Origin: Saccharibacillus sacchari DSM 19268
Lineage (GTDB): Bacteria; Bacillota; Bacilli; Paenibacillales; Paenibacillaceae
Direction: 5' to 3'
Length of the DNA stretch: 64,000 bases
Assembly (NCBI RefSeq): GCF_000585395.1
Contig: NZ_KK073875.1
Span: 3,323,307-3,387,306 of the forward strand
In this document: positions 5,267 to 22,193 of the stretch, piece by piece
Numbering within the stretch: position 1 is the first letter of the stretch
Layout of the letters: every line of letters starts with the position of its first letter
Program-made: the position numbers and the translations under genes
The notes under the pieces: generated by a model
Databases searched by the model: none
Seen by the model: only the letters and a program-made list of their open reading frames with translations
Told to the model about the DNA's origin: nothing

Positions 5267-7558
5267 TCATACACCTTTTGCCGAGCCGGAAAACAGCTTC
5301 CGATATTGACCCGGCGTATGACCGGTTTCTTTCTTGAATTTGCGTATAAAGTTCGGTGCATCCTGATAGCCGATTCGCCCGATGATCTCTTTCAACGGTT
5401 CGTCCGTCGTCGTCAACTGCACGATTGCCGCGGCCATTCGTTTATGCCAGATATATTGAACGAAGTTCGTCCCGACCTTTTCCTTGAATGAACGGCTGAA
5501 GTACGACATGGAGATTGAATAGTTATGCGAGATCGTCTCCAGACTGAGCGAATGATCCGCGTAATGCTCATCGATATAAGCCACGATCGTATCCATCAGC
5601 GTATGGGCTTCGCATTCTTCTTTTTGTTCAATTTGCTCGCAAAGCTTGTCCACGAGTCGCAAGAAATAAGGCTCCAACTCTTCCGGCGAAGAGAACGATT
5701 CGAGCGGAGGGATGCCTCCGTGCAGATTATCGATCCCCGCTTCATTGGCCGTTTTCAGAATCGTATTGAGAATGTCAAAGCCGATACAACGCATGTAACG
5801 TGCCGAGAGTCCGGGAATCCGCAGCGTGTCCAAAGCTTCGGCTACGGAACGCGCAGCCACGTCGGCGCTTCCTTGCTTCAGGCTCTGAGTCAGCTTGAGC
5901 AACACATTTTTCGGAACCCAGTACGCTTCGCCGGAGTCCGCTGTCAGATCGCTAAAGTAAGCAATACTCGCTCCGCCGCTGCGTGTGCGCGACTCGAACG
6001 CCGAACAGGCTTCGATAAACGATTGACTGAGCCGCTGAGGTCCTGCCGAACAAGTGCCGATCCCGATTGCCGGATTCAACCGACCGATACCTTGCAGATG
6101 ATCATGAACGGAGCGCGCGATTCGGTCGATCTGCTCCGTCTCGTCCAACTCTTCGAGCGGATCGAAACCGACGATCAACGCGATTTGATCCGGCTTTTGC
6201 AATTCCACGCTATGCAGCTTCGCGCCCAACTCCGGATATTCCGCTTCGGCCAGCATGGTTAGCATCAACTGCCAGTCGCGCGTCTCGTCCGTGGTTGCGC
6301 CGGGACGTTCGCGGCCAATCAGCATCGTGAAATAGCGAGTGCGGTCAAAGTCCAATCCGAACGATTGCAGCAGCTCGGGAGTCAGTTCTTCATCGCCGCC
6401 GTGGCGCAGCAGCATCAGCAGGAAATGATTGCGCGCATACGGCTCCTGCAAATCTGCCTTCGCGCTATAAGCTTGCAGCGCCGAACGAATCCGGTCCAAC
6501 TCATTGCCGGGTGCCGCGTCGTGAACCGGATTGGCATCGCCCGAACGCGAAGTCGGCTTGGATTCGGCAAACTCGGACAATTGGAAAATGGGGCTATACT
6601 GCCGACGCGCCAGCAACCACGCGCCGAGTGCACCGAAAACGACGACGATCGAGAACAGCGCCGCGATAAAGGTACGAATATGCAGAACGCTGCTGAAAAA
6701 CTGCGAGCTCGGCATCAGCGTCACATATTCCCAGCCATTCAGTTCGGATTTTACCGATACGACGGAATGCGGAACGCCGTCGATCGCAATGCTATGTGTT
6801 CCGGTGGATAGCGAAACAAGAGAGCCTAGCGCGTCTTCTCCCAACCCTTCCTCTTGGTTGCTTTTCACAGCCAGAACTTGTCCTTCCGAGTCGAAAATAT
6901 AGGAAGAGCCTTCATACCCGCCCAGAATCGAATCGATAAGACCCGTTAGGCTGGATTCTTTAACAAAGTACATCAAGGTGCCATGCGGATTCGGGCTATT
7001 CGGAACGATCGGAACCAAATAAGCCAGCGTCGACTGCTCGAAGCCGGAACCGCGACTGACCAGATCGGCAGGGCGCATCGTCGCAAACCGTGTCTTGTTC
7101 AGATCGGTTTCGACTGTGCCGGCTTCCCAGTTGCGGAACCGGTATTTATCCGCAAACACGTCCAGATCATACATGCCTACACTGGAATAAATCCGCGGAT
7201 CACCCCGGAAATACAGGAACATCTCGTCAATGATCGGACTTGCCGCTTTGTAATTCCCCAACGCGTCGATTGCCTCGAGACTGTAATACGCATCATGCAC
7301 GCGATAACGACTAAGCCTCGGATCATACGCCGCGCGCGAAGCGATATCATTCAATTGCTGCAAATGAGTGTCCACGATCGTCTCGGCCTGAGTGAGTTGG
7401 TTGAGATGCGATTGTTCGATTTGCGCGCGTAAATTGGCCGCCGTATTGTGATACAACACAAACGTCAGACAGATCAGCGGAATGAGCAGAACGAACAGAT
7501 AAGAGGAAATGTATTTCAGGAAGAGCCGTGATTTGAAGTAGCTCGGTTTCACCTTCAT
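5267..7558 (-). CDS. Membrane-bound AraC-family sensor-regulator of the glycan locus
   Basis: A 763-residue one-component regulator. A TM helix lies at about residues 12-35, an extracellular sensor of Cache-like build spans about 36-290, a second TM lies at about 290-315 (FIAALFSIVVVFGALGAWLL), then a cytoplasmic linker and a C-terminal AraC DNA-binding domain (last about 100 residues: ETISHNYSISMSYFSRSFKE and IGRIGYQDAPNFIRKFKKE). This architecture is common in Paenibacillus next to carbohydrate ABC importers and probably reports an external sugar. The second ATG (7558) is chosen because AAGGAG lies 7 bases before it; the ATG at 7564 almost touches the ribosome site. It is divergent from the permease operon at 8116 and is its likely activator. 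Confidence 0.9.
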   Translation of the reverse strand: MKVKPSYFKSRLFLKYISSYLFVLLIPLICLTFVLYHNTAANLRAQIEQSHLNQLTQAETIVDTHLQQLNDIASRAAYDPRLSRYRVHDAYYSLEAIDALGNYKAASPIIDEMFLYFRGDPRIYSSVGMYDLDVFADKYRFRNWEAGTVETDLNKTRFATMRPADLVSRGSGFEQSTLAYLVPIVPNSPNPHGTLMYFVKESSLTGLIDSILGGYEGSSYIFDSEGQVLAVKSNQEEGLGEDALGSLVSLSTGTHSIAIDGVPHSVVSVKSELNGWEYVTLMPSSQFFSSVLHIRTFIAALFSIVVVFGALGAWLLARRQYSPIFQLSEFAESKPTSRSGDANPVHDAAPGNELDRIRSALQAYSAKADLQEPYARNHFLLMLLRHGGDEELTPELLQSFGLDFDRTRYFTMLIGRERPGATTDETRDWQLMLTMLAEAEYPELGAKLHSVELQKPDQIALIVGFDPLEELDETEQIDRIARSVHDHLQGIGRLNPAIGIGTCSAGPQRLSQSFIEACSAFESRTRSGGASIAYFSDLTADSGEAYWVPKNVLLKLTQSLKQGSADVAARSVAEALDTLRIPGLSARYMRCIGFDILNTILKTANEAGIDNLHGGIPPLESFSSPEELEPYFLRLVDKLCEQIEQKEECEAHTLMDTIVAYIDEHYADHSLSLETISHNYSISMSYFSRSFKEKVGTNFVQYIWHKRMAAAIVQLTTTDEPLKEIIGRIGYQDAPNFIRKFKKETGHTPGQYRKLFSGSAKGV

Positions 7559-7937
7559 CTTCATTCTCCTTTCCCGATCCCTGTTTTGGCAGATATAAGC
7601 CGTTACCTTCTATCTAAAGTGTACGAAAGTGTGGGATTGTCGGACAATATGTAGAATTTGACCAATTATAGGGAGGCGCAGCGGCGCTGTCTTTTGCTTT
7701 TCGATATGTTGTTTTTTACTTTTGGACGGGAATAGAAAACATTAATCTTTCTTCGCGATGTGAAATTCGATTGGTTTTCCATGAAAAAACCAGTGATTCT
7801 GTAATGTATTCTAACACATTTTCCAGTCGGTGCGATTGTCAAAATTTTCGTCAGAGCCAAAACCACATATTTACGCTCTGCCTTTCGTTCTGTAAACTCG
7901 CTGTAAACCCAAATCAACGAAACGCGGAATGAAGGCA

Positions 7938-7952
7938 ATGGAAATGCTTACA
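7938..7952. promoter_or_regulatory. Possible CcpA (cre-like) site
   Basis: ATGGAAATGCTTACA fits the cre consensus WTGNAANCGNWNNCA except for one C-to-T change in the central CG. It lies upstream of the carbohydrate operon, where catabolite control would be expected. The surrounding gap 7559-8115 holds no convincing gene; a 90-codon minus-strand ORF at 7666-7938 has no family features. Confidence 0.35.
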
Positions 7953-8041
7953 AAAAAATAGACGCACGCCATATTCAATCCGGAAATGTGACAATATCAT
8001 TGAATGGGTGCATCGGAAAGGAAAAGCCATCACAAAAAAGC

Positions 8042-8069
8042 TTGTCAGGTAATGTGACTCTTCTATATC
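8042..8069 (+). promoter_or_regulatory. Probable promoter of the glycan operon
   Basis: TTGTCA (8042-8047), a 16-base spacer and TATATC (8064-8069), 46 bases before the permease start. This is a weak sigma-A-like pair, as expected for an activator-dependent promoter. Confidence 0.45.
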
Positions 8070-8115
8070 TTATTCTTGCCTGACCGGCCATTTAACTAAC
8101 AAGGGAGTGAAGACG

Positions 8116-9081
8116 ATGATGCACGAGGGCGCAAAAGCGGTGCTTGATCCACAAGACGTACCGGCCAAACGAAAAAGCAAAAAGTTATTCAAGAAAATCG
8201 TACGCAACTGGCAGTTGTACATCTTTATGGCTCCCGCGCTGCTGACCGTCATTATTTTCAACTATGTACCGATGTACGGTATTCAGATCGCGTTCAAAAA
8301 TTACATCCCCGCGCTGGGCATGGCAGAGAGCAAGTGGGTCGGCTTCGATCATTTCACCCGGTTTTTCGAATCGTATTATTTCTGGGATCTGATGTGGAAT
8401 ACGCTCAGTATCAGCTTGTACGGATTGCTGGTCGGATTCCCGCTGCCGATTCTGCTCGCGCTAGCTTTCAACGAAATCCGCACGGGTCCTTTTAAAAAGA
8501 CGGTCCAGACCGTTACATACGCGCCGCACTTTATCTCGATGGTCGTTATGGCGGGCATGATCATCACCTTCCTGACGCCGTCGACCGGCATGATCGTCAA
8601 TCTGCTCGAAGCGATCGGAGTCACGCCGCCGAGCTTCCTGACCGATCCGCGCTGGTTCAAGACGGTCTACGTGCTATCGGATGTCTGGCAGGCTACCGGA
8701 TGGGGAACGATTATTTATTTGGCCGCCCTGACCGCCGTCGATCCGGGATTGCACGAAGCGGCCATCCTCGACGGAGCATCGAGGCTTCAGCGGATTCGGC
8801 ATATCAACTTCCCGGTCATTATTCCGACGATTACGATTCTGCTGATTCTGAACATGGGCGGATTGCTCGGCGTCGGTTACGAGAAAATCCTGTTGCTGCA
8901 AAACCCGCTTAATATGGAAGCTTCCGACGTCATCGCCACTTCCGTTTACCGAACCGGCTTGCTCGAAGCGCAGTACAGTTACTCGACCGCGGTCGGCTTG
9001 TTCAACTCGATCGTGAACGCGATCTTGCTGATCGTCGTCAATCAGGTGGTGCGGCGCACGAGCGAGAACAGTCTGTGGTAA
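8116..9081 (+). CDS. Carbohydrate ABC transporter permease (LplB-like)
   Basis: A 321-residue inner-membrane permease of the CUT1 class. It has a basic cytoplasmic N-terminus, about six TM helices (first around YIFMAPALLTVIIF) and the EAA loop near residue 205-225 (AALTAVDPGLHEAAILDGAS) that docks the ATPase. It pairs with the next permease. The start at 8116 follows AAGGGAG with an 8-base gap; a GTG at 8107 is rejected because it overlaps that site. No ATPase gene is nearby, so a shared MsmX-type ATPase is likely. The cargo is probably an oligosaccharide, judged from the downstream hydrolases. Confidence 0.93.
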   Translation: MMHEGAKAVLDPQDVPAKRKSKKLFKKIVRNWQLYIFMAPALLTVIIFNYVPMYGIQIAFKNYIPALGMAESKWVGFDHFTRFFESYYFWDLMWNTLSISLYGLLVGFPLPILLALAFNEIRTGPFKKTVQTVTYAPHFISMVVMAGMIITFLTPSTGMIVNLLEAIGVTPPSFLTDPRWFKTVYVLSDVWQATGWGTIIYLAALTAVDPGLHEAAILDGASRLQRIRHINFPVIIPTITILLILNMGGLLGVGYEKILLLQNPLNMEASDVIATSVYRTGLLEAQYSYSTAVGLFNSIVNAILLIVVNQVVRRTSENSLW

Positions 9082-9115
9082 GCGTGAAAAAGATGAATTC
9101 AGGGAGGGATGAAGG

Positions 9116-10021
9116 ATGATCAGTTCGATTAAAGAAACCAAGCAGGACAAAGTCTTTCTCGCTTTCGTGTATCTGATCTTGACGGTGGCGCTCGTGATCG
9201 TCGCTTATCCGCTGATCTATATCTTGAGCGCTTCGATCAGCAATCCGACCATCGTGGCCGCCGGGGAAATGTGGCTGCTGCCGAAAGATATTACGTTTGA
9301 AGGATATCGCCGCGTGTTTCAGGATTCCAGCATCTGGAACGGTTATCTGAATACCGTCATCTATACCGTCGTCGGAACGCTGGTTAATCTGGTCGTCACG
9401 CTGCCCGCGGCTTACGCACTGAGCCGCCGCGATTTCGTCGGACGCAACCTGTTCATGATTTTGTTTATCGTAACCATGTTCTTCGGCGGCGGGTTGGTTC
9501 CTACGTATCTGGTCGTTCGCAGTCTCGGACTCGTCGACAGCATGTGGGCGTTGATCCTACCGGGGGCGACCTCGGTGTGGAACCTGATCGTGTGCCGAAC
9601 CTTTTTCCAATCGTCGATTCCGAGAGAATTGCAGGAAGCGGCAGAGATCGACGGGTGCAGCAATTTCCGCCTGTACTTCCGTATCATTCTTCCGCTGTCT
9701 ACCGCGCTGATCGCCGTTATGGCTCTCTTTTTCGGCGTCGGGCATTGGAACAACTACTTCTCCGCCATGATCTACCTGAACCAACAGGAAAAATATCCGC
9801 TTCAACTGGTGCTTCGGCAGATTTTGGTCCTGCAGCAGATGTCGGCGCAGGCCGGAACCATCGACGCCACCATGGCGACTTCGCTCAATAACAAAGCCGA
9901 AGTTGCCGCGCTCGTCAAATATGCCGTTATCATCGTCGCAACGCTGCCGATCATCGCGGTGTATCCGTTCCTTCAGCGTTACTTCGTGCAAGGTGTCATG
10001 ATCGGCTCCGTCAAGGGCTGA
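9116..10021 (+). CDS. Carbohydrate ABC transporter permease (YtcP/AraQ-like)
   Basis: A 301-residue second half of the heterodimeric importer channel, of the AraQ/YtcP type with about six TM helices. An EAA-type motif is seen around residues 172-195 (SIPRELQEAAEIDGCSNFRL). The ATG at 9116 has GGGAGG 8 bases upstream. It lies 34 bases after the first permease and 65 bases before the binding-protein gene, in one transcription unit. The C-terminus (FVQGVMIGSVKG) is typical of the family. Confidence 0.93.
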   Translation: MISSIKETKQDKVFLAFVYLILTVALVIVAYPLIYILSASISNPTIVAAGEMWLLPKDITFEGYRRVFQDSSIWNGYLNTVIYTVVGTLVNLVVTLPAAYALSRRDFVGRNLFMILFIVTMFFGGGLVPTYLVVRSLGLVDSMWALILPGATSVWNLIVCRTFFQSSIPRELQEAAEIDGCSNFRLYFRIILPLSTALIAVMALFFGVGHWNNYFSAMIYLNQQEKYPLQLVLRQILVLQQMSAQAGTIDATMATSLNNKAEVAALVKYAVIIVATLPIIAVYPFLQRYFVQGVMIGSVKG

Positions 10022-10086
10022 TTTTGCATAGCATTACATTGTCGTACTACCTGCATATCCATCAGAAAAAAGGGGAGGATTTAGGT

Positions 10087-11694
10087 ATGAAAAAGGGACG
10101 TAAAAAAGGAGCAGTCGCATTATCCGGCTTGTTGTTGTTCTCGGTGTTGGCTTCGGCCTGTCAATCCGGAGGGTCGCCGACGGAGTCGGCAGCGGAAACA
10201 GGCGGTACGGTGAGCAAAGACGGATTCCCGATCGTCGAACAACCGATTACGCTGAGCGTGTTCGCGCCGAGCGCCGATATGGCGCCGTGGGACACCATGC
10301 CGGTCATCGAAGAGATGGAGAAGCTGTCCAATATCAAGATCGAGTTCCAGACCGCGCCGATCGACAGTTTCCCGACGAAGAAGAATCTGGTCTTCGCGAG
10401 CGGCGAACTGCCGGACATCCTCTACGCTGCGGATATCACGCCGGCCGAGCAGGTTAGCTACGGCACGCAGGGGCAACTCGTACCGCTCGAAGACTTGATC
10501 GACAATTACGCGCCCAACCTGAAAAAAATCCTCGACGAAAACCCGAACGTGCGCAAATCGATCACGACGACGGACGGTCATATCTACGCGCTGCCGTTTA
10601 TCGACACGACAGCGGTCTGGTACCGCGGCCCGATGTGGTACAACGGCGAATTCCTGGAAACGCTGGGCGTGGAAGAGCCGAAAACGACGGACGAGCTGTA
10701 CGACTATCTGAAACGCGTCAAAACCGAAGATCCGAACGGCAACGGCCAGGCTGACGAAATCCCGTTGACTTCGGTCAAGCTGGACGATCTGCGCATGTTC
10801 TTCCTCGGCTTCTGGGGAATCTATAACGAAGTGTATTACGCGGACAAAGACGGCAAAGTCCACTACACGCCGCAGGAAGAAGGCTACAAAGGCTATCTGA
10901 CTTTCCTGAACAAGCTGTGGAACGAAGACCTGCTGGATCACGAGACGTTCTCGCAAACCGATGAGCAGAAAAAAGCCAAAGGCGCGAAAAACCAACTGGC
11001 GCTGTTCAGCGACTTCTATCCGTACTTCACGCTCGGCGGAACTGAAGAAACCATGCAAGATCCGATGATGACGCCGGTGAGCAGCGAAATCGCGGATACG
11101 CCGGTTTACGGCAAACATCCGGGCATGTCTTCCAACGGCACGTTCGCGATCTCGGTCACGAATCCGAGTCCGGAAGCCAGCATGCGCTGGATCGATTATC
11201 AATACGGATATGACGGCGCGACGCTGTGGACGCAAGGACCGAAAGGCATGATGTGGGATTACGTAGACGAAGCCACGCACGAGAAAAAGTATCTCGAAGT
11301 GCCGAACGGCGGCGACCGCGAGGAATTCCGCGCGACGCTGACGCCGAACTACGGCATCGTGACGCCGGGCGTCAATATCCCGGATCTGACCAACGGCCTG
11401 CGCAGCGAAGTGGAAGACTGGGTCGTGCAGCAAAACGAAGAAAAACTCGTGCCGATCGCCAAAATCCCGTTCCCGAACGTGTATCTGACCAACGACGCGC
11501 AAACGGAAGTGTCCGCGCTGCTGTCCGATCTGAACACGTACGTGGAACAAATGGAAGCGAAATTCGTTACCGGGCAAGAACCGCTGAGCAACTGGGATGC
11601 CTATGTGGCGCAGCTGAAAAAAATGGGCAGCGACCGCATCGTGGAAATCTATCAAGAAGCCTACGATCAGTGGAACAGCGAAAACGCGCAGTAA
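10087..11694 (+). CDS. Extracellular solute-binding lipoprotein
   Basis: A 535-residue lipoprotein. The signal ends in the lipobox LASAC, lipidated at Cys25, followed by a short Gly/Ser/Thr linker and a long family-1-type sugar-binding fold (LplA-like, larger than classical maltose-binding proteins). It should capture the oligosaccharide for the two permeases encoded just upstream. The true start is 10087, with GGGAGG 8 bases before it; an in-frame codon at 10024 would add a tail in front of the signal peptide. A hairpin downstream may hold expression of this gene above that of the enzymes. Confidence 0.93.
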   Translation: MKKGRKKGAVALSGLLLFSVLASACQSGGSPTESAAETGGTVSKDGFPIVEQPITLSVFAPSADMAPWDTMPVIEEMEKLSNIKIEFQTAPIDSFPTKKNLVFASGELPDILYAADITPAEQVSYGTQGQLVPLEDLIDNYAPNLKKILDENPNVRKSITTTDGHIYALPFIDTTAVWYRGPMWYNGEFLETLGVEEPKTTDELYDYLKRVKTEDPNGNGQADEIPLTSVKLDDLRMFFLGFWGIYNEVYYADKDGKVHYTPQEEGYKGYLTFLNKLWNEDLLDHETFSQTDEQKKAKGAKNQLALFSDFYPYFTLGGTEETMQDPMMTPVSSEIADTPVYGKHPGMSSNGTFAISVTNPSPEASMRWIDYQYGYDGATLWTQGPKGMMWDYVDEATHEKKYLEVPNGGDREEFRATLTPNYGIVTPGVNIPDLTNGLRSEVEDWVVQQNEEKLVPIAKIPFPNVYLTNDAQTEVSALLSDLNTYVEQMEAKFVTGQEPLSNWDAYVAQLKKMGSDRIVEIYQEAYDQWNSENAQ

Positions 11695-11779
11695 ACCGTC
11701 CGTAATGGATAAAAAACATGCGGCAGGCGTCGTTTGAAATGAAAAAACGGCGCTTCGTCTAAGAAGTGAATCGAAGAAG

Positions 11780-11817
11780 CGAAAGATGAAGCGGGAGAGC
11801 CCGTTTTCGTTTTTCGC
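11780..11817 (+). promoter_or_regulatory. Hairpin between binding-protein and fucosidase genes (attenuator-like)
   Basis: GCGAAA (11780-11785) pairs with TTTCGC (11812-11817) around an inner GCGGG-AGAG-CCCGT stem followed by T-rich sequence. It lies between two genes of one operon, so it may stop part of the transcripts or protect the upstream message. Confidence 0.5.
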
Positions 11818-11848
11818 TTCTCGTTTTATCAAGGAGGCTAATCCCGAA

Positions 11849-13252
11849 ATGACGGATATCAAAGTGACGGAAGCAACATCGGAAAACGAAGAAACGGTCG
11901 TTCACGAAGGCGTGCACAATTACAGCAGCGAAGACGAATGGGTCAAGCCGGAAGATCCTTTGATTTTAGAGCGGCTGGAATGGTTCAAAGACCAGAAGCT
12001 GGGGCTGATGATGCACTGGGGACCGTATTCGCAGCTCGGCGTAGTGGAATCGTGGGCGCTGAGCGACGGAGACGCGGATTGGGCGAGAGACTGTATCGAC
12101 TGGGGCGTGGAAGGCGAAGAGTTGAAGCGCGAATATTTCGATCTCGACAAAACGTTTAACCCGATTCGGTTCCAGCCGGAACTGTGGGCCGATCTGGCCG
12201 CGGAAGGCGGGTTCAAATATTTGACGTTTACGACCAAGCATCACGACGGGTTCTGCATGTGGGATACGCATACGACGGATTACCGCATCACCGGGCCGGA
12301 GACGCCGTTCCATCGGCACAAATACGCGGATATCTGCCGGAATCTGTTCGATGCGTTCCGCTCCAGAGGGCTTGCGATCTCGACTTATTTCTCCAAAGCG
12401 GATTGGCATACGAAAGACTACTGGGCCCCCGGCATGGAGCGCGGCGAAAAAATGTGGCGCGGCCCGTCTTACGATCCGAAAGAGTACCCGTGGCTGTGGG
12501 AAAAGTTCGTTCAATTCACGCATGAGCAGATTACCGAGCTGATGACGCGTTACGGACGGATCGACATGCTGTGGCTGGACGCGGGCTGGGTCAACGAGCG
12601 CAGCGGTCAGGATATCCGGCTCGGCGAGCTGGTCGATAATATCCGCCGCGAGCATCAACCGTGGCTGTTGTCGGCCGACCGTACCGTAGGTGGAGCCTAC
12701 GAAAATATCATCACGCCGGAGCAAACGCTGCCGGAGCGTCCGCTAAACGTGCCGTGGGAAAGCTGCATCACGATGGGCACTTCGTTTTCGTTCAATTATG
12801 AAGATCGCTACAAAAGCGTGCGCGAACTGGTGCATCTGCTGGTCGAGATCGTGGCAAAAGGCGGCAATCTCGCGCTTAACGTCGGGCCTCAGCCGGACGG
12901 GCGTTTGCCGCAGGCGGCGATCCAAGGCATGAAAGGATTGGGAGCCTGGCTGAAGGTGAACGGCGAAGCCATCTACGGGACGCGAATCTGCGAGCCTTAC
13001 GTGTCCGAGGATAAAACCATTCAATTTACGCGCAAAGGCGACATTGTGTACGCGATCCGGTTGTACGGGGAACATGAAGCCGTAGAAACCGAACTTGCTA
13101 TTCCGGTAATCGGCGAGTTCAAGCGGGCTTCGTTGGTCGGAACGGACGGCGAACTGCCGATGCGCGGCACGGACGCGGGCGTAATCGTGACGCTGCCGGA
13201 ATCGATGGGTACAGACGGCACGCCGATCGCGTTGGCCATTCGTTTGGAATAG
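11849..13252 (+). CDS. GH29 alpha-L-fucosidase, cytoplasmic
   Basis: A 467-residue glycoside hydrolase of family 29, which removes alpha-linked L-fucose with retention. Family motifs seen are MHWGPYSQLGVVESW near the start, TKHHDGFCMWD in the middle and MLWLDAGW with the predicted nucleophile Asp244. No signal peptide is present, so it acts on imported sugar. The start at 11849 follows AAGGAGG with an 11-base gap; an earlier in-frame ATG at 11786 would run through the attenuator-like hairpin. It lies in the operon with a GH18 enzyme and a transglutaminase-fold protein, suggesting a fucosylated GlcNAc-containing substrate. Confidence 0.92.
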   Translation: MTDIKVTEATSENEETVVHEGVHNYSSEDEWVKPEDPLILERLEWFKDQKLGLMMHWGPYSQLGVVESWALSDGDADWARDCIDWGVEGEELKREYFDLDKTFNPIRFQPELWADLAAEGGFKYLTFTTKHHDGFCMWDTHTTDYRITGPETPFHRHKYADICRNLFDAFRSRGLAISTYFSKADWHTKDYWAPGMERGEKMWRGPSYDPKEYPWLWEKFVQFTHEQITELMTRYGRIDMLWLDAGWVNERSGQDIRLGELVDNIRREHQPWLLSADRTVGGAYENIITPEQTLPERPLNVPWESCITMGTSFSFNYEDRYKSVRELVHLLVEIVAKGGNLALNVGPQPDGRLPQAAIQGMKGLGAWLKVNGEAIYGTRICEPYVSEDKTIQFTRKGDIVYAIRLYGEHEAVETELAIPVIGEFKRASLVGTDGELPMRGTDAGVIVTLPESMGTDGTPIALAIRLE

Positions 13253-13292
13253 CAAGCAAGCTTGAGCAGACAGTTGAACAGGAGGCATACAC

Positions 13293-14357
13293 ATGAACTT
13301 AAGCGGAATGCCGGAACCGGCGATTCCTTTTGCGCCGTTGTCGTATCTCTGCAAACGTGCGCCGGGCAAGCTTGAACTGGACGGCCGCCTGGACAAAACG
13401 TTCTGGGACGACGCGCCGTGGACGGAAGACTTCGTCGATATTGAAGGCGATCTGAAGCCGAAGCCCTGGAAACGGACGCGAGTCAAAATGCTGTGGGACG
13501 ACGAATATTTTTATTTCGGCGCGGAATTGGAAGAAGACGAGATTTGGGCAACGTTGACGGAACGGGAATCGGTCATTTTTTACGACAACGACTTCGAGAT
13601 TTTTATCGATCCCGACGGCGACACGCATCAATATTACGAGTTCGAGATCAACGCGTTGAATACGGTATGGGATCTGATGCTGGTCACGCCTTATCGCGAC
13701 GGGGGCCCGTCTGTAAACGGCTGGGATATCCGTGGTTTACGGACGGCGGTACATATCGACGGCAAACTGAACGATCCGGACGCGGACAATCGGAGCTGGA
13801 GCGTAGAAGTCGCGATGCCGTGGAACATTTTGCGCGAATGCGCGGAAGGGCAACAACCGCCGCAAGCCGGACAATCTTGGCGGGTGAACTTTTCGCGGGT
13901 CCAATGGCAGGTCGAAAAGGAGCAAGGCGCTTATCGGAAAAAGATCAATCCCGAGACTGGGCGTCCGTTTCCCGAAGACAATTGGGTCTGGTCGCCGCAA
14001 GGCGTGATCAATATGCACTATCCGGAAATGTGGGGATTCGTGCAGTTTGCGGGAGAAGAGATGTCCGGCGGCGCCGAGCCGCCGTTCGAACTTCCGGCCG
14101 ACGAGCGCGTGAAGTGGAAGTTGCGTCGTCTCTATTACCGCCAACGGAATCACTATGAACGCTTCGGGAAATTCGCGGCCGAGCTGGCTCCGCTGTTGGA
14201 AGACGGCGACGAAGGCGGCGAACTTGCGGCATGGGGAGATTCGGCTCAAGCGCCGTTGATCGAGACAACCACGAATTCGTTCCGGATCCGGGCCGCGTCG
14301 GCGAACGGAAGCGGAGCATACTGGATACGCGAAGACGGAAAACTATGGAAGGAGTGA
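13293..14357 (+). CDS. CBM9-like carbohydrate-binding protein
   Basis: A 354-residue protein with a CBM9-like domain over about residues 20-250: ELDGRLDKTFWDDAPW, WDDEYFYFGAELEE and the segment DNDFEIFIDPDGDTHQYYEF. The C-terminal 100 residues are charged and unassigned. Similar stand-alone proteins are annotated as carbohydrate-binding family 9-like. No signal peptide or TM is seen, so it appears cytoplasmic, unlike CBM9 modules of secreted xylanases. Its ribosome site is AGGAGG. It lies 40 bases after the fucosidase and 7 before the transglutaminase-fold gene. Its role may be to present or sense the imported glycan. Confidence 0.85.
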   Translation: MNLSGMPEPAIPFAPLSYLCKRAPGKLELDGRLDKTFWDDAPWTEDFVDIEGDLKPKPWKRTRVKMLWDDEYFYFGAELEEDEIWATLTERESVIFYDNDFEIFIDPDGDTHQYYEFEINALNTVWDLMLVTPYRDGGPSVNGWDIRGLRTAVHIDGKLNDPDADNRSWSVEVAMPWNILRECAEGQQPPQAGQSWRVNFSRVQWQVEKEQGAYRKKINPETGRPFPEDNWVWSPQGVINMHYPEMWGFVQFAGEEMSGGAEPPFELPADERVKWKLRRLYYRQRNHYERFGKFAAELAPLLEDGDEGGELAAWGDSAQAPLIETTTNSFRIRAASANGSGAYWIREDGKLWKE

Positions 14358-14364
14358 ATCGGCG

Positions 14365-17169
14365 ATGAAAACGGGCGAAAGCAAGCCGGAGATCGGACGA
14401 AGCTCAAGCGTGAAAGATTCGGACTGGGAGCAATCGAACGCGCGGGACAATGCCGGCGCGACAAACGGTATTTTTTCGCTGACTCCCGAACGGCTTGACG
14501 CGATCAACGAAGCGTTCGAGCAGCGGAGGGAATTGGCGGCGGCGCGAGATGATGAACTGTTCGGCGTATTGGAACAGGTTGCGGACGACGAAGAACGTCT
14601 GGCGTTGATTTTCCTGTACGCGCATATGCCGATCAACGATCTGGCCGATTATGACGGGCAGTTATTTTTGAGCCATGTTCGGCACGCCCTGCATATGCGT
14701 AATGCGATGCCTTGGGGAGCCGACGTGCCGGACGAATTGTTTTTGCATTACGTGCTGCCGCCGCGCATCAACAACGAACGGATCGAAGATTATCGCGGCA
14801 TTATCGCAGATCAGTTGACCGAGCGCGTTTGTTCGTTGTCGATGAGCGAAGCCATACTGGAGACCAATTATTGGTGTTATGAAAAAGCGACGTATACCGG
14901 CAGCGATGCGCGAACCATTTCGCCGCTCGGCATGATCGTCAGCGCCAAAGGACGCTGCGGCGAAGAATCAACGCTTACGACCGCTGCGCTGCGCAGTATA
15001 GGCATACCCGCGCGTCAGTGCTACACGCCGCGCTGGGCGCATGTCGATGACAACCATGCCTGGGTAGAAGCGTGGGCGGACGGCAAGTGGCATTTTATCG
15101 GGGCTTGCGAACCGGAAGCCCAGCTCGACAAAGGCTGGTTCGACGCCCCGGCCCGCCGGGCGATGCTGGTCCATACCCGGGTTCCGGCCGGATACGACGG
15201 ACCCGAGCCGGTCACCTATACGGACGGGTCGCACACCGAAATCAATCTGCTGGCAAATTATGCGCCGGTGCGGAAGCTGCTTGTGCAGGTATCGGATGCT
15301 GACGGTCGGCCTGCCGCCGAAGCCGAAGTGCAGTTTCAGATTTACAACTATGCGGAGCTGCACCCGATCGCTTCGGTGCGAACGGATGATAACGGCGAAG
15401 CCGCATTTCTGACCGGATACGGCGATCTGGTCGTGCGCGCGGCGTCGAAAGGCACTTGGGCGGAAGCTTGGATCAAAGGCAGCGAGGAGAAGTCTGCAGA
15501 ACAGCAGATCGCGCTGACACTGAATCGAAACGGACAACCGGAAGGCATAATCGATTTCGATCTGACGCCGCCGAAAGAGATTCCTCCTCCGGCAGATCGC
15601 GAAACGCTGAGCGAACAAGCGTTAGAGATCCACCGCCGGCGCACGGCTGAAGGCGAGCAGATACGCAATGCTTACGAATCCACTTTTATCGGCGAAGAGC
15701 AAGCCGGGACAATGGCAGGGCGATGGGGACTGGAACCGGACCGTTTGCTTAAAGTGTTGGGCGACGCGCGGGGAAATCACGGCGAAATTGCGGCTTTTCT
15801 GGACAAATATGTGCCCGAGCACGGCGAATGGCCGCTGCGATTGCTGGAAAGCCTGACTGCCAAAGACATGATCGATATAGGGCAACAAACATTAGAGGAC
15901 CATCTGCTTGGCGGTCTGCAAGCTTTGCGCGATTGCGAACAAAATTATCGCGGCGAACTTTTCGTTGCGGAAGTGTTCTGCCCGCGCGTGCGGTGGGAAC
16001 GCCTGGCTCCGTACCGTAAGAAGCTGCGAGCCGCTTTTGCGATCGCGGAGCAGGAGCAATTTCGGGCCGATCCGCAATTGTTGGCCCGGCGGATCGCGGA
16101 CGCGTGGAGCGTGCGCGACGATCTGACGCCCGTACCCGGCAAAGCGTCGCCGTTCGGGACTTTTGCATTGAGAGCGGGAGATCGGGAGTCGGTCGAAATT
16201 TTGCTGGTGGCGCTTTGCCGCAGCATCGGCATCCCGTCCCGGCTGCATCCCGCAACGCAGCGGCCGCAGGCAATGGCAGACGGGGCATGGATCGACCTCG
16301 AGCGTCCGGTCTCAGCTTTCAACAGCGACATGAAAGCGGGCGAGCCGGAAGCTGAAGCATTGAAGACTGCGACAGGCAACCCTTCGAACAAGGAGTCAGT
16401 CTCGATGCTCGGCACGTTACGTCTGCTGCCGAATATCGAAAATTCGGATACGGCCGTCGCAGTCGAAGCTTCTTATCGGGAAAACTTCACCCTGGCCCGT
16501 CTGGAGAACGGATTGTATGCGACCTTGAATTATCCGTTTCGTAAAAAAGACGTGCATGCGCAGCCGTTTGAGCTGGAAGCGGGCGAATACCGGATGACGA
16601 CAGGCATTCGTTTGCAAAATGGCCGCGTGCTTGGACGGATGTTCGATTTCGTGATCGGGCCTGAACGCGAAACGACGCTTGCTCCAATCTTCCGGCAGCC
16701 TGAAGAAGTCGTTCCGGTGCTCGGAATCGCCCCCGACATTTCTCGCTTGACTCTTCGGGACGGGACCGCGTCTGCGCTGTCCGATCTTGTCGGCAGCGAT
16801 GGCGCACTGGTGGCTTGGATCGATTACCGCTTGGAGCCGACCCGTCACCTGCTGCGCGAGGCTGGCGAAATGAAAGCGGAGCTGGAAGCGGCAAACGTGC
16901 CGTTGGTGTTCATCGTCAGCGATCAAGCGGTCGATATGGACGAGATTATGCCGTTTATTCCCAAGCCGCTGCCGACAGGAGCAATCTTTGCTTATGATGC
17001 GTCCGGCGCAGGCTTGGAGACAATGAGTACTGTTTGTCCGCCTCCGGGCAAGGAATATCCGCATCTTTTTGTGTTAGACGCGCAGCGGCATATCCGCTAC
17101 GCCGAATCCGGCTATAAGCCCGGCAGCTGCCGCGAAGCGTTGAGCGTTTTGCTTACGGTTCGCGATTAG
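14365..17169 (+). CDS. Large transglutaminase-fold protein with PNGase-like core
   Basis: A 934-residue protein without signal peptide. The core at about residues 150-275 is transglutaminase-like: catalytic Cys198 in GRCGEES and His231 in DDNHAWVEAW, then WHFIGACEPE. The spacing and the GRCGE and ACE motifs recall peptide:N-glycanases as remembered from the family, but the expected catalytic Asp before ACE is Gly. Residues about 300-380 look like a beta-sandwich. A second weak transglutaminase-like segment lies near 590-650 (DRESVEILLVALCRSIGIPSRLHP). The C-terminus (about 790-930) resembles a thioredoxin/redoxin fold without a CxxC pair. It is embedded in a fucosidase/GH18 operon, with AAGGAG before the ATG. 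Activity (protease, amidase or glycan release) is unproven. Confidence 0.8.
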   Translation: MKTGESKPEIGRSSSVKDSDWEQSNARDNAGATNGIFSLTPERLDAINEAFEQRRELAAARDDELFGVLEQVADDEERLALIFLYAHMPINDLADYDGQLFLSHVRHALHMRNAMPWGADVPDELFLHYVLPPRINNERIEDYRGIIADQLTERVCSLSMSEAILETNYWCYEKATYTGSDARTISPLGMIVSAKGRCGEESTLTTAALRSIGIPARQCYTPRWAHVDDNHAWVEAWADGKWHFIGACEPEAQLDKGWFDAPARRAMLVHTRVPAGYDGPEPVTYTDGSHTEINLLANYAPVRKLLVQVSDADGRPAAEAEVQFQIYNYAELHPIASVRTDDNGEAAFLTGYGDLVVRAASKGTWAEAWIKGSEEKSAEQQIALTLNRNGQPEGIIDFDLTPPKEIPPPADRETLSEQALEIHRRRTAEGEQIRNAYESTFIGEEQAGTMAGRWGLEPDRLLKVLGDARGNHGEIAAFLDKYVPEHGEWPLRLLESLTAKDMIDIGQQTLEDHLLGGLQALRDCEQNYRGELFVAEVFCPRVRWERLAPYRKKLRAAFAIAEQEQFRADPQLLARRIADAWSVRDDLTPVPGKASPFGTFALRAGDRESVEILLVALCRSIGIPSRLHPATQRPQAMADGAWIDLERPVSAFNSDMKAGEPEAEALKTATGNPSNKESVSMLGTLRLLPNIENSDTAVAVEASYRENFTLARLENGLYATLNYPFRKKDVHAQPFELEAGEYRMTTGIRLQNGRVLGRMFDFVIGPERETTLAPIFRQPEEVVPVLGIAPDISRLTLRDGTASALSDLVGSDGALVAWIDYRLEPTRHLLREAGEMKAELEAANVPLVFIVSDQAVDMDEIMPFIPKPLPTGAIFAYDASGAGLETMSTVCPPPGKEYPHLFVLDAQRHIRYAESGYKPGSCREALSVLLTVRD

Positions 17170-17208
17170 CAGGCAATCCTTACTACTTCATGGAAAAGAG
17201 GAAATGAC

Positions 17209-18315
17209 ATGACCGGCTCCCTATCTGCGCAAGACCCAAATTCAAATGTTGTTCGTACGGTCGGTTACGTCGGCCATAACGATCTCCCGGATCTCGACAC
17301 GGAAGACCTGCTCAAGCTGACCCATATCAATATCGCTTTCGGTCATGTGGGCAACGACGCGATCGTGACCGACCATTTGAATAATATGACCGAAATCGCC
17401 CGCCTCAGAAAAGAACATCCGAGTATCCTGATCCTGTTGTCGGTCGGCGGTTGGAGCGCGGGCGGATTCTCTGAAGCAGCCTCCACCGAAGCCGGACGCC
17501 GCCGCATGGCTGAATCCTCGCTGGCTGCGATCGATGCCTATGACTTGGACGGGATCGATCTCGACTGGGAATATCCGTGCTACGGCGAAGCCGGAATCGG
17601 AGCCGACCCGGCCGATCGCGAAAACTTCACGCATTTGCTGCGAAGTATCCGTGAAGCGTTCGACGCGCGCGGCGCCGTTGACGACCGGCATTATTTGCTG
17701 ACGATCGCGGCGGGGGCGGATCAGTATTATATCGACGGCACGCATATGGACGAAGCGCAGCAATACCTCGATTACGTTCAGTTGATGACCTACGATATGC
17801 GCGGAGGTTTCCAGGTGCTGACCGGACATCATACCAATCTGCATACGCCGACTGGCGATTTGTTCCGCATCAGCGTCGAAGCATCGGTCAACTTGTTTGT
17901 GCATGCTGGCGTACCGAGATCGAAGATCGTGATCGGCGCGGCTTTTTATTCCCGGATGTGGAAAGGCGTGCCGAACGTGAATAACGGTCTGCATCAGATG
18001 GCGGCGACAAGCGGCGGTTACGGTCCGGAATTCACGGAGCTGCACGACGATTATATCGACCGGAACGGTTTTCGCCGATATTGGGACGATGAAGCCAAAG
18101 CGCCTTATCTTTACGACGGAGGAACGCAAGACGCCGGTACCTTTATTACCTATGACGACAAAGAGTCGATTCATTGGAAATGCCGTTACGTTATTCAAGA
18201 AGGTTTGGGCGGCGTGATGTTCTGGGAATATCGCTGCGATCGTACAGGATTGCTGCTGGAAGCTATCCGTGCAGGATTAGCCAGCGGGGAAAAAGCGGCC
18301 CCGTCCGTATCTTGA
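17209..18315 (+). CDS. GH18 chitinase-type glycosidase, cytoplasmic
   Basis: A 368-residue family 18 glycoside hydrolase. The signature DGIDLDWEYP is seen with the catalytic acid Glu121, along with LLSVGGWSAGG upstream and QLMTYDMRGG and MFWEYRCD later, as in chitinases. No signal peptide, chitin-binding or LysM domain is present, so it acts inside the cell on imported chito-oligosaccharides or chitobiose-core glycans. GH18 also includes endo-beta-N-acetylglucosaminidases, so the product cannot be predicted. It is the last gene of the operon, 39 bases after the transglutaminase-fold gene, and is followed by a strong hairpin. Confidence 0.92.
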   Translation: MTGSLSAQDPNSNVVRTVGYVGHNDLPDLDTEDLLKLTHINIAFGHVGNDAIVTDHLNNMTEIARLRKEHPSILILLSVGGWSAGGFSEAASTEAGRRRMAESSLAAIDAYDLDGIDLDWEYPCYGEAGIGADPADRENFTHLLRSIREAFDARGAVDDRHYLLTIAAGADQYYIDGTHMDEAQQYLDYVQLMTYDMRGGFQVLTGHHTNLHTPTGDLFRISVEASVNLFVHAGVPRSKIVIGAAFYSRMWKGVPNVNNGLHQMAATSGGYGPEFTELHDDYIDRNGFRRYWDDEAKAPYLYDGGTQDAGTFITYDDKESIHWKCRYVIQEGLGGVMFWEYRCDRTGLLLEAIRAGLASGEKAAPSVS

Positions 18316-18411
18316 TGAGAGTGCAACGTAAAACTTTTGAGTAAAAAGGATCGGAATATCGGCGATTATGGACAAGTTTCTTTTCTATCGCTACAATCGA
18401 ATACAATGTCA

Positions 18412-18642: not shown

Positions 18643-20340
18643 TTGACGACCTTTCAACAGTTTGACTACGTACGCCCAAATATTGACCAGTTGAAGATTA
18701 ATTTTAAGGAATTGATCGCCAAGTTCGAAGCCGCAGGGAGCGTTGGGGAGCAAGAGTCTGTCATGCACGAGATTAATGCGCTGCGCAACAGCTTTGACAC
18801 GCAGCACCAGCTCGTCAGCATTCGCCATTCGATCGACACTACCGACGAGTTTTACAAAAACGAGCAGGATTTCATGGACGAAGTCGGCCCGGTCGTGCAG
18901 GAGTACATATCCGATTACTACCGCGCGCTGACGACCTCGAAATTCCGCGGCGAGTTGGAAAGCAAATGGGGCACGCAGCTGTTCGCGTTGGCCGAAAGCG
19001 CGATCCGCACGTTCAGCCCGGAGATCATCGAAGATCTTCAGCTCGAAAACAAACTGTCCACCGAATACGATCAGCTGATCGCATCGGCGAAAATTCCGTT
19101 CGAAGGCGAAGAGCGCACGCTGCCGCAGCTGCTGCCGTTCGAATTGTCGACGGATCGCGATATGCGCAAACGCGCGTCGGAAGCCCGCTTCGGTTTCCTG
19201 AACGAAAAAGAATCGGAACTGGACCGCATCTACGACGAGCTGGTCAAAGTCCGTACCAAAATCGCGAAAAAACTCGGCTACCCAAGCTTCGTCGAGATGG
19301 GTTACGACCGCATGATGCGCACCGACTACAACGCCGAGATGGTCGCGAACTTCCGCAAGCAAGTGCAAGAAGAGATCGTGCCTGTAGCGACTCGTTTGCG
19401 CAAGCGTCAAGAAGCACGGATCGGCGTCGACACGCTGCGTTATTACGATAACGGCTTCAGCTTCAAGAGCGGCAACGCCACGCCGAAAGGCGACCCGGAC
19501 TGGATCGTCAAAAACGGCGAAGACATGTACAAAGAGCTGGCGCCGGAAACGGACGAGTTTTTCCAATTCATGCTGAAAAACGACTTGATGGATTTGGTGA
19601 GCAAAAAAGGCAAAGCGGGCGGCGGTTACTGCACGTACCTGCCGGATTACAAAGCGCCGTTCATTTTCTCGAACTTCAACGGCACTTCCGGCGATATCGA
19701 CGTGTTGACGCACGAAGCGGGACACGCGTTCCAAGTGTATTCCAGCCGCGGTCACGAAGTGCCGGAATACTTGTGGCCGACGTATGAATCCGCCGAGATC
19801 CATTCCATGAGCATGGAGTTCTTCACTTGGCCGTGGATGGAGAAATTCTTCAAGGAAGATACCGATAAGTACCGCTTCGACCATTTGGCTTCGAGCCTGC
19901 TGTTTATTCCTTACGGCGTCTCGGTCGACGAATTCCAGCATTTCGTGTACGCCAACCCGGACGCGACGCCGGACGAGCGTAAAACGGCTTGGAGAGAGAT
20001 CGAGAAGAAATACCTGCCGCACCTGAACTACGAAGGCAACGATTACCTGGAGCGCGGCGGTTTCTGGCAAAAGCAAGGCCATATTTACGGCGCGCCGTTC
20101 TATTATATCGATTACACGCTGGCTCAGCTCTGCGCGTTCCAATTCTGGAAGCGTTCGAGAGAAGACTTCGAAGCGGCATGGAAAGATTATATTCACCTGT
20201 GCGGTCTGGGCGGCACGCAATCCTTCACCGGACTTGTCAAGGAAGCCGGCCTGATTTCCCCGTTCGAAGACGGCTGCGTATCCTCCGTGATCGGGACGAT
20301 CGAAGAATGGCTGAACAGCGTGGACGACAAAGCGCTGTAA
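18643..20340 (+). CDS. M3 family oligoendopeptidase, paralog 1
   Basis: A 565-residue zinc metallopeptidase of the M3 family, short oligoendopeptidase subgroup. HEAGH is near residue 357 (LTHEAGHAF), with the downstream Glu helix around AEIHSMSMEFF. It probably degrades peptides in the cytoplasm. The start is TTG at 18643, with GGAGGA 6 bases upstream; the ATG just before it is followed at once by a stop in another frame. It has its own promoter and is followed 70 bases later by a terminator and then a close paralog in the same direction. Codon use is strongly biased, suggesting high expression. Confidence 0.93.
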   Translation: MTTFQQFDYVRPNIDQLKINFKELIAKFEAAGSVGEQESVMHEINALRNSFDTQHQLVSIRHSIDTTDEFYKNEQDFMDEVGPVVQEYISDYYRALTTSKFRGELESKWGTQLFALAESAIRTFSPEIIEDLQLENKLSTEYDQLIASAKIPFEGEERTLPQLLPFELSTDRDMRKRASEARFGFLNEKESELDRIYDELVKVRTKIAKKLGYPSFVEMGYDRMMRTDYNAEMVANFRKQVQEEIVPVATRLRKRQEARIGVDTLRYYDNGFSFKSGNATPKGDPDWIVKNGEDMYKELAPETDEFFQFMLKNDLMDLVSKKGKAGGGYCTYLPDYKAPFIFSNFNGTSGDIDVLTHEAGHAFQVYSSRGHEVPEYLWPTYESAEIHSMSMEFFTWPWMEKFFKEDTDKYRFDHLASSLLFIPYGVSVDEFQHFVYANPDATPDERKTAWREIEKKYLPHLNYEGNDYLERGGFWQKQGHIYGAPFYYIDYTLAQLCAFQFWKRSREDFEAAWKDYIHLCGLGGTQSFTGLVKEAGLISPFEDGCVSSVIGTIEEWLNSVDDKAL

Positions 20341-20409
20341 AAAGAATTCGACCGATCACGTCAAAGAAACGCGAGTATGAGCCTGTTCGAGAAATCCGCC
20401 TTAACCGAC

Positions 20410-20492: not shown

Positions 20493-22193
20493 ATGAAGCA
20501 GTCGTTTCACGATTTTCCGTATGTTCGTCCCGATATCGAGGCTGTCGGTCGGGACTTCCAAGCCGCGATAACCGCTTTCGAATCTGCCGAGAACGTCGAG
20601 GAGCAGATCGTTGCCAATCGCGAATACAACGAGCTGTATTCGGCAATCGCGACGCAGGTCATGTTGGTCAATATTCGGCATTCGATTGATACGACCGACG
20701 CTTTTTATCAAGAAGAGAAAGCGTTCATGGACCGCAACATCCCGATCGTGCAGCAGATGGAAGCGGCTTATCATCGGGCGTTGATTGCTTCGAAATTCCG
20801 GCCTCAGCTTGAAAAATTGTGGGGGACGCAGCTTTTTGCCCTGGCCGATGCTTCGAGCCGTACGTTCGATCCGGCAATCATCGAAGAACTTCAGCGTGAA
20901 AACGAGCTGTCGACGAAATATCAAATGTTGATCGCGTCGGCGAAAATTCCGTTCGAAGGCGAAGAGCGCACATTGATGCAGCTGATGCCGTTCGAATTGT
21001 CGACCGACCGCGCGATGCGGAAAAAAGCTTCTGAAGCGCGTTATGCGTTCATGGAGGAACACGAAGCCGAATTCGACGGAATCTACGACGAGCTGGTCAA
21101 AGTCCGCACGGGAATGGCCCGCAAGTTGGGGTATCCGAGTTATGTGGAAATGGGCTATGACCGGATGAAGCGAACGGATTACGATGCCGGGATGGTAGCC
21201 AATTTCCGTAAACAAGTATTGGACGAGATCGTGCCCGCGGCAACTTCCTTGCGCAATCGTCAGCAGCAACGAATCGGCGTCGACACGCTGCGTTATTACG
21301 ATAACGCGTTCAGCTTCGAAAGCGGAAATGCCACCCCGAAAGGCGACGCGGATTGGATCGTGCAAAACGGCGAACAGATGTATCGGGAGATGTCGCCGGA
21401 GACGGACGAGTTTTTCCAATTCATGCTGCAAAACGACCTGATGGATCTGGTGAGCAAAAAAGGCAAAGCGGGCGGCGGTTACTGCACGATGCTGTTCGAT
21501 TATAAAGCGCCGTTCATTTTTTCCAACTTCAACGGAACCTCGGCGGATATCGACGTGCTGACGCACGAGGCGGGACACGGCTTCCAGGACTACCGCAGCC
21601 GGGAGTTCGAAAATAAAGCGTATTGCTTCCCGACCATGGAGTCCGCCGAGATCCATTCCATGAGCATGGAGTTTTTCGCTTGGCCGTGGATGGAGAAGTT
21701 CTTCGAAGAAGATACCGACAAGTACCTGTTCAATCATCTTGCAAGCGCGCTTCAATTCATTCCGTACGGCGTTTCGGTCGACGAATTCCAGCATTTCGTG
21801 TACGGCAACCCCGACGCGACGCCGGAAGAGCGCAAAAAGGCGTGGCGGGATATCGAGAACAAATACCTGCCGCATCTGAATTACGAAGGCAGCGATTATT
21901 TGGAGCGGGGCGGCTTCTGGCATAGGCAAAGCCATATTTTCACCGCGCCGTTTTATTACATCGATTACACGCTGGCGCAAATCTGCGCGTTCCAGTTCTG
22001 GAAACGTTCGAGGGAAGACCGCGAAGCGGCTTGGGCGGATTACGTGCATCTCTGCGGTCTCGGCGGCAGCTTGTCGTTCACGAACCTGGTTCGCGAAGCG
22101 GGCTTGATCTCGCCGTTCGAGGACGGCTGCGTATCGTCCGTGATCGGACAGATCGAAGAGTGGTTGAACGGAGTCGACGATCGCGCGCTGTAG
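20493..22193 (+). CDS. M3 family oligoendopeptidase, paralog 2
   Basis: A 566-residue tandem paralog of the gene at 18643, alike along the whole length: same YVRP N-terminus, identical FEGEERTL and KKGKAGGGYCT segments, and HEAGHGF near residue 358. It has an ATG start with GAGGAG upstream. The gene duplicates the entire reading frame, but the spacer and codon choice differ (less GC-rich third positions), so it is not a very recent copy. A different peptide preference or expression condition is the likely reason for keeping both. Confidence 0.93.
   Translation: MKQSFHDFPYVRPDIEAVGRDFQAAITAFESAENVEEQIVANREYNELYSAIATQVMLVNIRHSIDTTDAFYQEEKAFMDRNIPIVQQMEAAYHRALIASKFRPQLEKLWGTQLFALADASSRTFDPAIIEELQRENELSTKYQMLIASAKIPFEGEERTLMQLMPFELSTDRAMRKKASEARYAFMEEHEAEFDGIYDELVKVRTGMARKLGYPSYVEMGYDRMKRTDYDAGMVANFRKQVLDEIVPAATSLRNRQQQRIGVDTLRYYDNAFSFESGNATPKGDADWIVQNGEQMYREMSPETDEFFQFMLQNDLMDLVSKKGKAGGGYCTMLFDYKAPFIFSNFNGTSADIDVLTHEAGHGFQDYRSREFENKAYCFPTMESAEIHSMSMEFFAWPWMEKFFEEDTDKYLFNHLASALQFIPYGVSVDEFQHFVYGNPDATPEERKKAWRDIENKYLPHLNYEGSDYLERGGFWHRQSHIFTAPFYYIDYTLAQICAFQFWKRSREDREAAWADYVHLCGLGGSLSFTNLVREAGLISPFEDGCVSSVIGQIEEWLNGVDDRAL

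Follow-up and report, generated by a model that had tools for sequence, protein, structure and literature searches.

In the present study, we analysed a window of 64,000 nucleotides from the 6.08 Mb, single-contig genome of Saccharibacillus sacchari DSM 19268 (NZ_KK073875.1, positions 3,323,307 to 3,387,306), in which an operon at 8107-18315 on the plus strand joins an importer to four processing proteins. Its seven open reading frames (ORFs) encode, in order, two ATP-binding cassette (ABC) permeases, a lipoprotein binding protein, a glycoside hydrolase (GH) of family GH29, a protein resembling carbohydrate-binding module family 9 (CBM9), a 934-residue transglutaminase-fold (TG) protein and a GH18 enzyme; a divergent AraC-type regulator lies upstream. 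The features, in window positions, were the following.

5267..7564, minus strand: AraC-type regulator (HTH_18 and GGDEF_2-like by Pfam; N-terminal membrane segments by eye)
8107..9081, plus strand: ABC permease A (BPD_transp_1, Pfam)
9116..10021, plus strand: ABC permease B (BPD_transp_1, Pfam)
10087..11694, plus strand: lipoprotein solute-binding protein of the AlgQ-like oligosaccharide-binding kind (PDB matches)
11786..13252, plus strand: GH29 alpha-L-fucosidase, predicted cytoplasmic (PF01120, 278.6 bits); candidate nucleophile D265 at 12578-12580
13293..14357, plus strand: CBM9_1-like protein, predicted cytoplasmic, the usual partner of TG (PF06452, 41.5 bits)
14365..17169, plus strand: TG protein (Transglut_core PF01841, 80.2 bits)
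14839..15141, plus strand: TG core, residues 159-259, with Cys198 at 14956, His231 at 15055, Gly246 at 15100 and Glu249 at 15109
17209..18315, plus strand: GH18 enzyme, predicted cytoplasmic, N-acetylglucosaminidase-like (PF00704, 238.7 bits)

The gaps between the seven ORFs measured 34, 2, 91, 40, 7 and 39 nucleotides. The ORF of the binding protein opens at TTG 10024, and if the protein begins at ATG 10087, which is preceded by GGGGAGG, the second gap becomes 65 nucleotides. Its N-terminus has a hydrophobic stretch (mean hydropathy 2.21) followed by a lipobox-like LASAC, and its PDB matches were 5g5y (E 6.8e-51), AlgQ1 (1.2e-42) and AlgQ2 (2.1e-41); the NgtS codes 5swa and 5swb were not among the codes listed for the 22 PDB sequences that it matched at E ≤0.001. 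Pfam detected no ATPase among the operon genes. The GH29, CBM9, TG and GH18 proteins lack a hydrophobic N-terminus (best 15-residue mean hydropathy ≤0.93 within the first 70 residues), which indicates that they carry no export signal. The first-pass annotation, made from the letters alone, had described one operon for an importer and four processing proteins without signal peptides, and every gene that it named was confirmed by Pfam and hydropathy.

The GH29 protein matched PDB 6gn6 at E 2.8e-60, and D265 aligned with the Asp of the WFD motif of 6gn6. In the GH18 enzyme, the catalytic motif DGIDLDWE (DxxDxDxE) occupies residues 114-121 (17548-17571). By far its best single-domain match was the N-acetylglucosaminidase 6inx, presumably from Paenibacillus barengoltzii (E 8.8e-160, 535 bits, residues 17-359 of 368); our literature search brought up no publication on this structure.

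Conservation of the gene set in Paenibacillaceae

Matches to TG at E ≤1e-30 were present in 117 of 295 Paenibacillaceae genomes. Among 398 genomes sampled from the phylum only five had a match at E 1e-20, and three of these were again Paenibacillaceae. The closest named matches, among those listed, include three Saccharibacillus records at 60-63%. For the survey of gene order we used 61 loci, namely the window and 60 stretches hand-picked for spread among the genomes with TG (two from one genome, four shortened by contig ends). The control consisted of 40 stretches, each some 20 kb long, placed arbitrarily in 20 genomes with TG at two per genome.

In 53 of the 61 loci the gene immediately before TG was CBM9, and in 36 the gene immediately after it was GH18. 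GH29 was likewise present in 36 loci, in nine of them in two copies, and TG, CBM9, GH29 and GH18 were found all together in 32. Homologues of the binding protein occurred in 42/61 loci versus 2/40 control stretches and those of the regulator in 36/61 versus 1/40, and permease A was matched in five control stretches. Since the gene set recurs in Paenibacillaceae while the 40 arbitrary stretches gave no match to GH29, GH18, CBM9 or TG, its recurrence is beyond chance.

Six loci of the same genus (L047-L052) hold a CBM9-TG pair that is more distantly related. The next gene belongs to a group represented by a DUF218 protein, and none of the glycoside hydrolase families sought was nearby.

N-glycan enzymes and peptidases near the transglutaminase-fold gene

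Pairs of GH125 and GH38 genes are a published marker of loci for the N-glycan core (PMC5215778). As 248 of 295 Paenibacillaceae genomes have GH125, it was rejected as a marker on its own; co-location was therefore measured against the 40 arbitrary stretches. GH38, GH92, GH125 or GH85 lay near TG in 9/61 stretches versus 0/40 in the control (one-sided Fisher p 0.008, an optimistic value as the loci are related). Within 5 kb of TG these enzymes were found in 8/61 Paenibacillaceae loci, 2/6 loci of other Bacillota and 6/47 loci of the Bacteroidota set described below. Pfam identified GH125 together with GH38 in L063, GH38 in L075 and L085, GH3 in L075, GH35 in L086 and, adjoining TG in L096, a GH85 with SLH domains; L097 also has a GH85 match. 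Peptidases were identified by Pfam beside TG as well, an M17 aminopeptidase in L090 and an M60 peptidase in L098.

The host genome itself has three GH125 matches and, distant from the operon, one further gene of interest.

L185:7304-10153 (G000:C1:1085303-1088152): GH85 endoglycosidase of 949 residues, with a signal peptide by eye

The genome has no match to PF01112 (glycosylasparaginase), PF09112 (N-terminal domain of the peptide:N-glycanase (PNGase) PNGase F) or PF12222 (PNGase A); as controls of the models, PF09112 matched in another genome, and PF12222 in 1/14 and PF01112 in 5/14 control genomes. PF01112 was found in only 6 of the 295 Paenibacillaceae genomes, and two of these six belong to the 117 that carry TG. 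This enzyme being absent here and rare in the family, TG would therefore fill a gap. If the substrate carries the bond between N-acetylglucosamine (GlcNAc) and Asn, the operon offers no candidate amidase other than TG.

In L090 (12459-15013) genes for Asparaginase_II and the M17 aminopeptidase lie directly upstream of the CBM9-TG pair and replace GH29 and GH18; L094 has the same layout.

Architecture of the transglutaminase-fold protein

The TG protein consists of an N-terminal region with the TG core, an Ig-like domain, a degenerate second TG-like stretch and a C-terminal thioredoxin-like domain without CxxC, and it had no match in NCBIfam. In an alignment of 76 sequences (the window and 75 of 80 relatives; L120, L131 and L133, which are short or hold X, and L141 and L183 were left out), the columns GRCGE, H and CE, with Cys198 and His231, were invariant in all 76. 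The A of ACE was nearly so. The motif GRCGE...H...ACE, read in the first-pass annotation as resembling the eukaryotic peptide:N-glycanase Png1, is thus a real feature of the family.

With the catalytic region alone as query, yeast Png1 came first (E 0.0048), followed by 3isr (0.031) and mouse PNGase (0.13). Among the eight TG-fold loci of the genome, the operon protein scored best against yeast Png1 (23.2 bits versus ≤18.6). The predicted structure of the whole protein is a good model, and its matches listed by Foldseek and VIA-align were mostly thioredoxin folds. The TG-fold matches listed by Foldseek were transglutaminase 2, factor XIII and 3isr; Png1 was not among the matches listed, an absence that says nothing on the catalytic domain.

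Relatives in Bacteroidota and the CutC family

The Bacteroidota set comprised 47 loci (L136-L183 minus L141) from the best 80 of at least 594 relatives; some of them come from bins to which no phylum name is attached, and several lie on short contigs. When the window was compared with 46 relatives of this set, the TG core had a mean identity of 68.6%, while the other domains had 20.8 to 32.0%. By a crude measure the N-terminus of TG was hydrophobic in 46/46 proteins of this set versus 0/30 from Bacillota. Within 5 kb of TG in the 47 loci we found CutC in 12, GH29 in 7, GH20 in 4, GH92 in 3, GH38 in 3, GH125 in 1 and CBM9 in 1. For CutC, GH92, GH20, GH38 and GH125, Pfam bore out the assignment in one or two representatives per family. 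Loci of this set in which GH18 gave no match keep the TG core.

CutC (PF03932, labelled copper homeostasis) stands by TG in L137, L142-L145, L147, L157, L165, L170, L171 and L173, with one more locus by tblastn only. Five of the eleven named loci also carry GH29. CutC was found in none of the 61 loci from Paenibacillaceae, in which GH18 is frequent, and it may replace GH18 in Bacteroidota. The papers listed for CutC together with N-glycans or fucosidases mentioned CutC once each. Among the matches listed, members of the TG family include proteins of the gut species Bacteroides fragilis and Phocaeicola massiliensis, the latter with a TG-CutC-GH29 locus (L147). A rough fit of gene numbers, using the positions of the GH29 and PNGase F-type genes, did not support equating the published core-fucosidase B035DRAFT_02132 with the GH29 that adjoins TG in L147.

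Proposed pathway

The import of a fucosylated GlcNAc core and its processing in the cytoplasm, as had been proposed from the sequence, are supported because the linkage of GH29, GH18 and TG is conserved and N-glycan enzymes adjoin some relatives of TG. We consider an N-glycan core to be the probable substrate of the operon. That TG is the GlcNAc-Asn amidase is a plausible suggestion which we hold with rather less than even confidence. The overall reading, in which core-fucosylated N-glycan stubs are taken up and broken down in the cytoplasm with TG as candidate amidase, is likewise put forward as tentative.

The substrate would be the protein-proximal stub of an N-glycan, Fuc-GlcNAc(1-2)-Asn or a short glycopeptide bearing such a stub. 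Outside the cell, stubs could be generated by the secreted GH85 of the host genome, peptidases and mannosidases. The importer is recognised from sequence, and the binding protein and two permeases, with an ATPase coded elsewhere, would carry the stub into the cytoplasm, where GH29, judging from the activity of its family, would remove the core fucose. TG, which the CBM9 protein may keep bound to the glycan, would then hydrolyse the GlcNAc-Asn amide by means of Cys198 and His231. Its products would be Asp and a glycosylamine, and the latter would decay to the free sugar. Finally, GH18 would split di-N-acetylchitobiose to GlcNAc, as suggested by its N-acetylglucosaminidase relative. In Bacteroidota the TG step would take place outside the cytoplasm, in line with an exported TG.

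If TG does cut the GlcNAc-Asn bond, bacteria would possess another way to reach the sugar nearest the protein, in addition to the PNGase F-type enzymes and the glycosylasparaginases, and a function would be given to a large protein family without an NCBIfam match. It would furthermore link CutC, labelled as a copper-homeostasis family, to glycan breakdown, and provide new enzymes for removing core-fucosylated stubs. A wider proposal, on balance doubtful, is that TG is the founding member of a new family of GlcNAc-Asn amidases, which would span bacterial phyla, use the TG fold with an altered triad (Cys-His, with Gly for Asp), act in the cytoplasm of Paenibacillaceae and be exported by Bacteroidota. 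Such a family would recover the core-fucosylated remnant left on proteins by endoglycosidases, and in Bacteroidota CutC would stand in for GH18.

Contrary evidence and other explanations

Several observations weigh against the uptake of N-glycan stubs and the role given to TG, and we set them out here with the explanations that they favour. The first group concerns the catalytic domain. The column of the usual triad Asp holds Gly (G246) in 76/76 aligned TG sequences, which leaves the Cys-His-Asp triad incomplete; the invariant E249 is a possible substitute. The whole TG protein matched chains of Png1 and PNGase weakly (E 0.032 to 0.69), and a profile of the whole protein found no Png1 at E ≤1. 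The family profile of the catalytic region placed 3isr, a putative cysteine protease, first (E 3.4e-6) and the PNGases at 0.0054-0.012. In addition, a further TG-fold protein encoded in the host genome (L004) scored 28.2 bits against mouse PNGase, and the operon protein was second with 19.3. Homology to Png1 was rejected as proof of function, given the higher score of L004 with mouse PNGase and the lack of the triad Asp. The earlier idea of a PNGase-like amidase is possible, and the TG core shares the catalytic Cys and His (Cys198 and His231) with Png1. On the side of the amidase, hhalign of the TG region gave 96.4% for mouse PNGase and 95.6% for yeast Png1, against 94.0% for 3isr.

It is conceivable, then, that the operon handles N-glycopeptide stubs with TG as a glycopeptidase, cutting peptide bonds beside the glycosylated Asn and leaving the amide to another enzyme. 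The first place of 3isr in the catalytic-region profile would suit this explanation, as would the M17, M60 and M3 peptidases near TG and the Asparaginase_II of L090 and L094, which recalls the pepV-asnA2 genes of Lactobacillus casei alf-2. An asparaginase beside TG would moreover be superfluous if TG yields Asp. However, asparaginase is no commoner by TG than elsewhere (2/61 TG stretches versus 1/40 control stretches, about the random rate), Asparaginase_II of Pfam differs from the family of AsnA2, 3isr is called a protease only in its title, and the host genome has no PF01112 glycosylasparaginase. We regard this explanation as unlikely, yet one to be taken seriously.

The second group concerns the substrate. 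The operon itself has neither an N-glycan mannosidase nor an endoglycosidase, GH125 is as widespread as stated above, and the two-domain chitinases 5gzu and 5gzt stood just above 6inx for GH18 by summed score, 5gzu through the addition of domains of 268 and 273 bits. The operon might instead import fucosylated or N-acylated chito-oligosaccharides, chitin-derived or Nod-factor-like, with TG as an N-acyl amidase or accessory protein and N-glycans not involved. Such a role would agree with a GH18 that matches chitinases besides the N-acetylglucosaminidase, with the missing mannosidase and with a binding protein of a general oligosaccharide kind. It is harder to reconcile with relatives of TG that adjoin peptidases and GH125, GH38, GH92 or GH85, enzymes of mannose-containing N-glycans, and with a TG core that is kept in Bacteroidota-set loci without a GH18 match. 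We judge it improbable.

The third group concerns the neighbourhood of TG at large. None of GH29, GH18, GH20, GH38, GH92, GH125, GH85 and CutC lay within 5 kb in 17/61 Paenibacillaceae loci and in at most 28/47 loci of the Bacteroidota set, the latter an upper bound, as several contigs end nearby and only homologues of chosen representatives were sought. These counts, and the DUF218 neighbour of the CBM9-TG pair in L047-L052, would be expected if TG were a general housekeeping protein, for peptide or cell-wall amide processing or as a structural scaffold, merely recruited to the glycan operons of Paenibacillaceae. The retention of the CBM9 partner in 53/61 loci, the recurring order with GH29 and GH18, and the strong conservation of the TG core alone argue against this possibility, to which we give a small chance. 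To these points must be added that our search found no activity or induction results for any member of the family.

Comparison with known systems

Returning to the breakdown of core-fucosylated stubs, the closest known system by the work done is alf-2 of L. casei, in which, according to the published description, Fuc-alpha-1,6-GlcNAc-Asn is imported, defucosylated by AlfC and cleaved at the amide by AsnA2 (PMC6960285). The likeness extends to the import of a core-fucosylated glyco-amino acid, a cytoplasmic alpha-L-fucosidase (AlfC, a GH29 relative by sequence), the later break of GlcNAc-Asn and a peptidase gene in the cluster. It differs in using a major facilitator superfamily (MFS) permease and the autoproteolytic glycosylasparaginase AsnA2, and the cluster as described is without TG, CBM9, ABC importer and GH18, whereas here the importer is of ABC type and the genome has no PF01112. 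Because the importer and amidase families differ, the operon is not alf-2 by membership, although it may still work alike.

The NgtS locus of Streptococcus pneumoniae, as described, shares an ABC importer of N-glycan pieces, and its GH85, GH92, GH38, GH125 and fucosidase families are also found beside relatives of TG. It imports the free glycan cut by EndoD, whose cutting site would leave the GlcNAc-Asn stub behind, and the described gene list has no TG (PMC5215778). A locus of Cutibacterium acnes, with ABC importer genes, has been proposed to degrade the N-glycan core in the cytoplasm; GH18 in the locus and GH29 elsewhere are both without a secretion signal. There GH38, GH5_18 and GH20 are proposed to act, and 'transglutaminase' is absent from the main text (PMC6160142). 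In the gut Bacteroides system for plant N-glycans, the glycan is released from Asn and the core fucose is removed by GH29; the amidase is of the PNGase F kind, and the main text holds no occurrence of transglutaminase or CutC (PMC9522356). Eukaryotic Png1/NGLY1 (1x3w, 3esw, 2f4m; PMC9102325) has the TG fold, and in our alignments the stretch R...P...GRCGE...R...H.W.E...W...CE matches between it and the operon TG. It differs in its domain plan and in the triad, in which the operon TG has Gly for Asp, and the similarity is weak and not specific to the operon TG.

The first-pass annotation had stated that no bacterial system of this form was described. This statement is not supported, since alf-2, as published, accomplishes this task on Fuc-GlcNAc-Asn by means of different proteins (PMC6960285), and for S. 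pneumoniae (PMC5215778) and C. acnes (PMC6160142) there are descriptions or proposals of N-glycan loci that act in the cytoplasm and include ABC importers. Within the terms searched, neither the combination of TG, CBM9 and GH18 nor a bacterial TG-fold protein tied to N-glycans or to GH29, CBM9 or GH18 loci was found in print. A cytoplasmic pathway for this class of substrate is thus already known from alf-2; the form with TG, CBM9 and GH18 and the uncharacterised enzyme family at its centre are the new part.

Adjacent features of the window

Two tandem genes for M3 oligoendopeptidases follow the operon at 18643-22193.

18643..20340, plus strand: M3 oligoendopeptidase, a possible accessory (TIGR02289, 733.8 bits), 327 nucleotides past GH18
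20493..22193, plus strand: second M3 oligoendopeptidase, homologue of the first (both proteins match one 13-member cluster)

M3 genes lie near TG in 9/61 Paenibacillaceae loci, the window included. A promoter-like site precedes the pair at 18369-18397; the frequency of such sites here was not above that in shuffled sequence. Long antisense open frames cover operon genes in the gene maps of several genomes (clusters c9, c12 and c14), for example at 10120-11862 on the minus strand against the binding protein, and they are probably a by-product of G+C-rich codon use. At the edge of the window, positions 10-1347 encode a partial GH5 cellulase with CBM3; the match begins only at position 112 of the GH5 profile, and the true start of the gene probably lies beyond the window edge.

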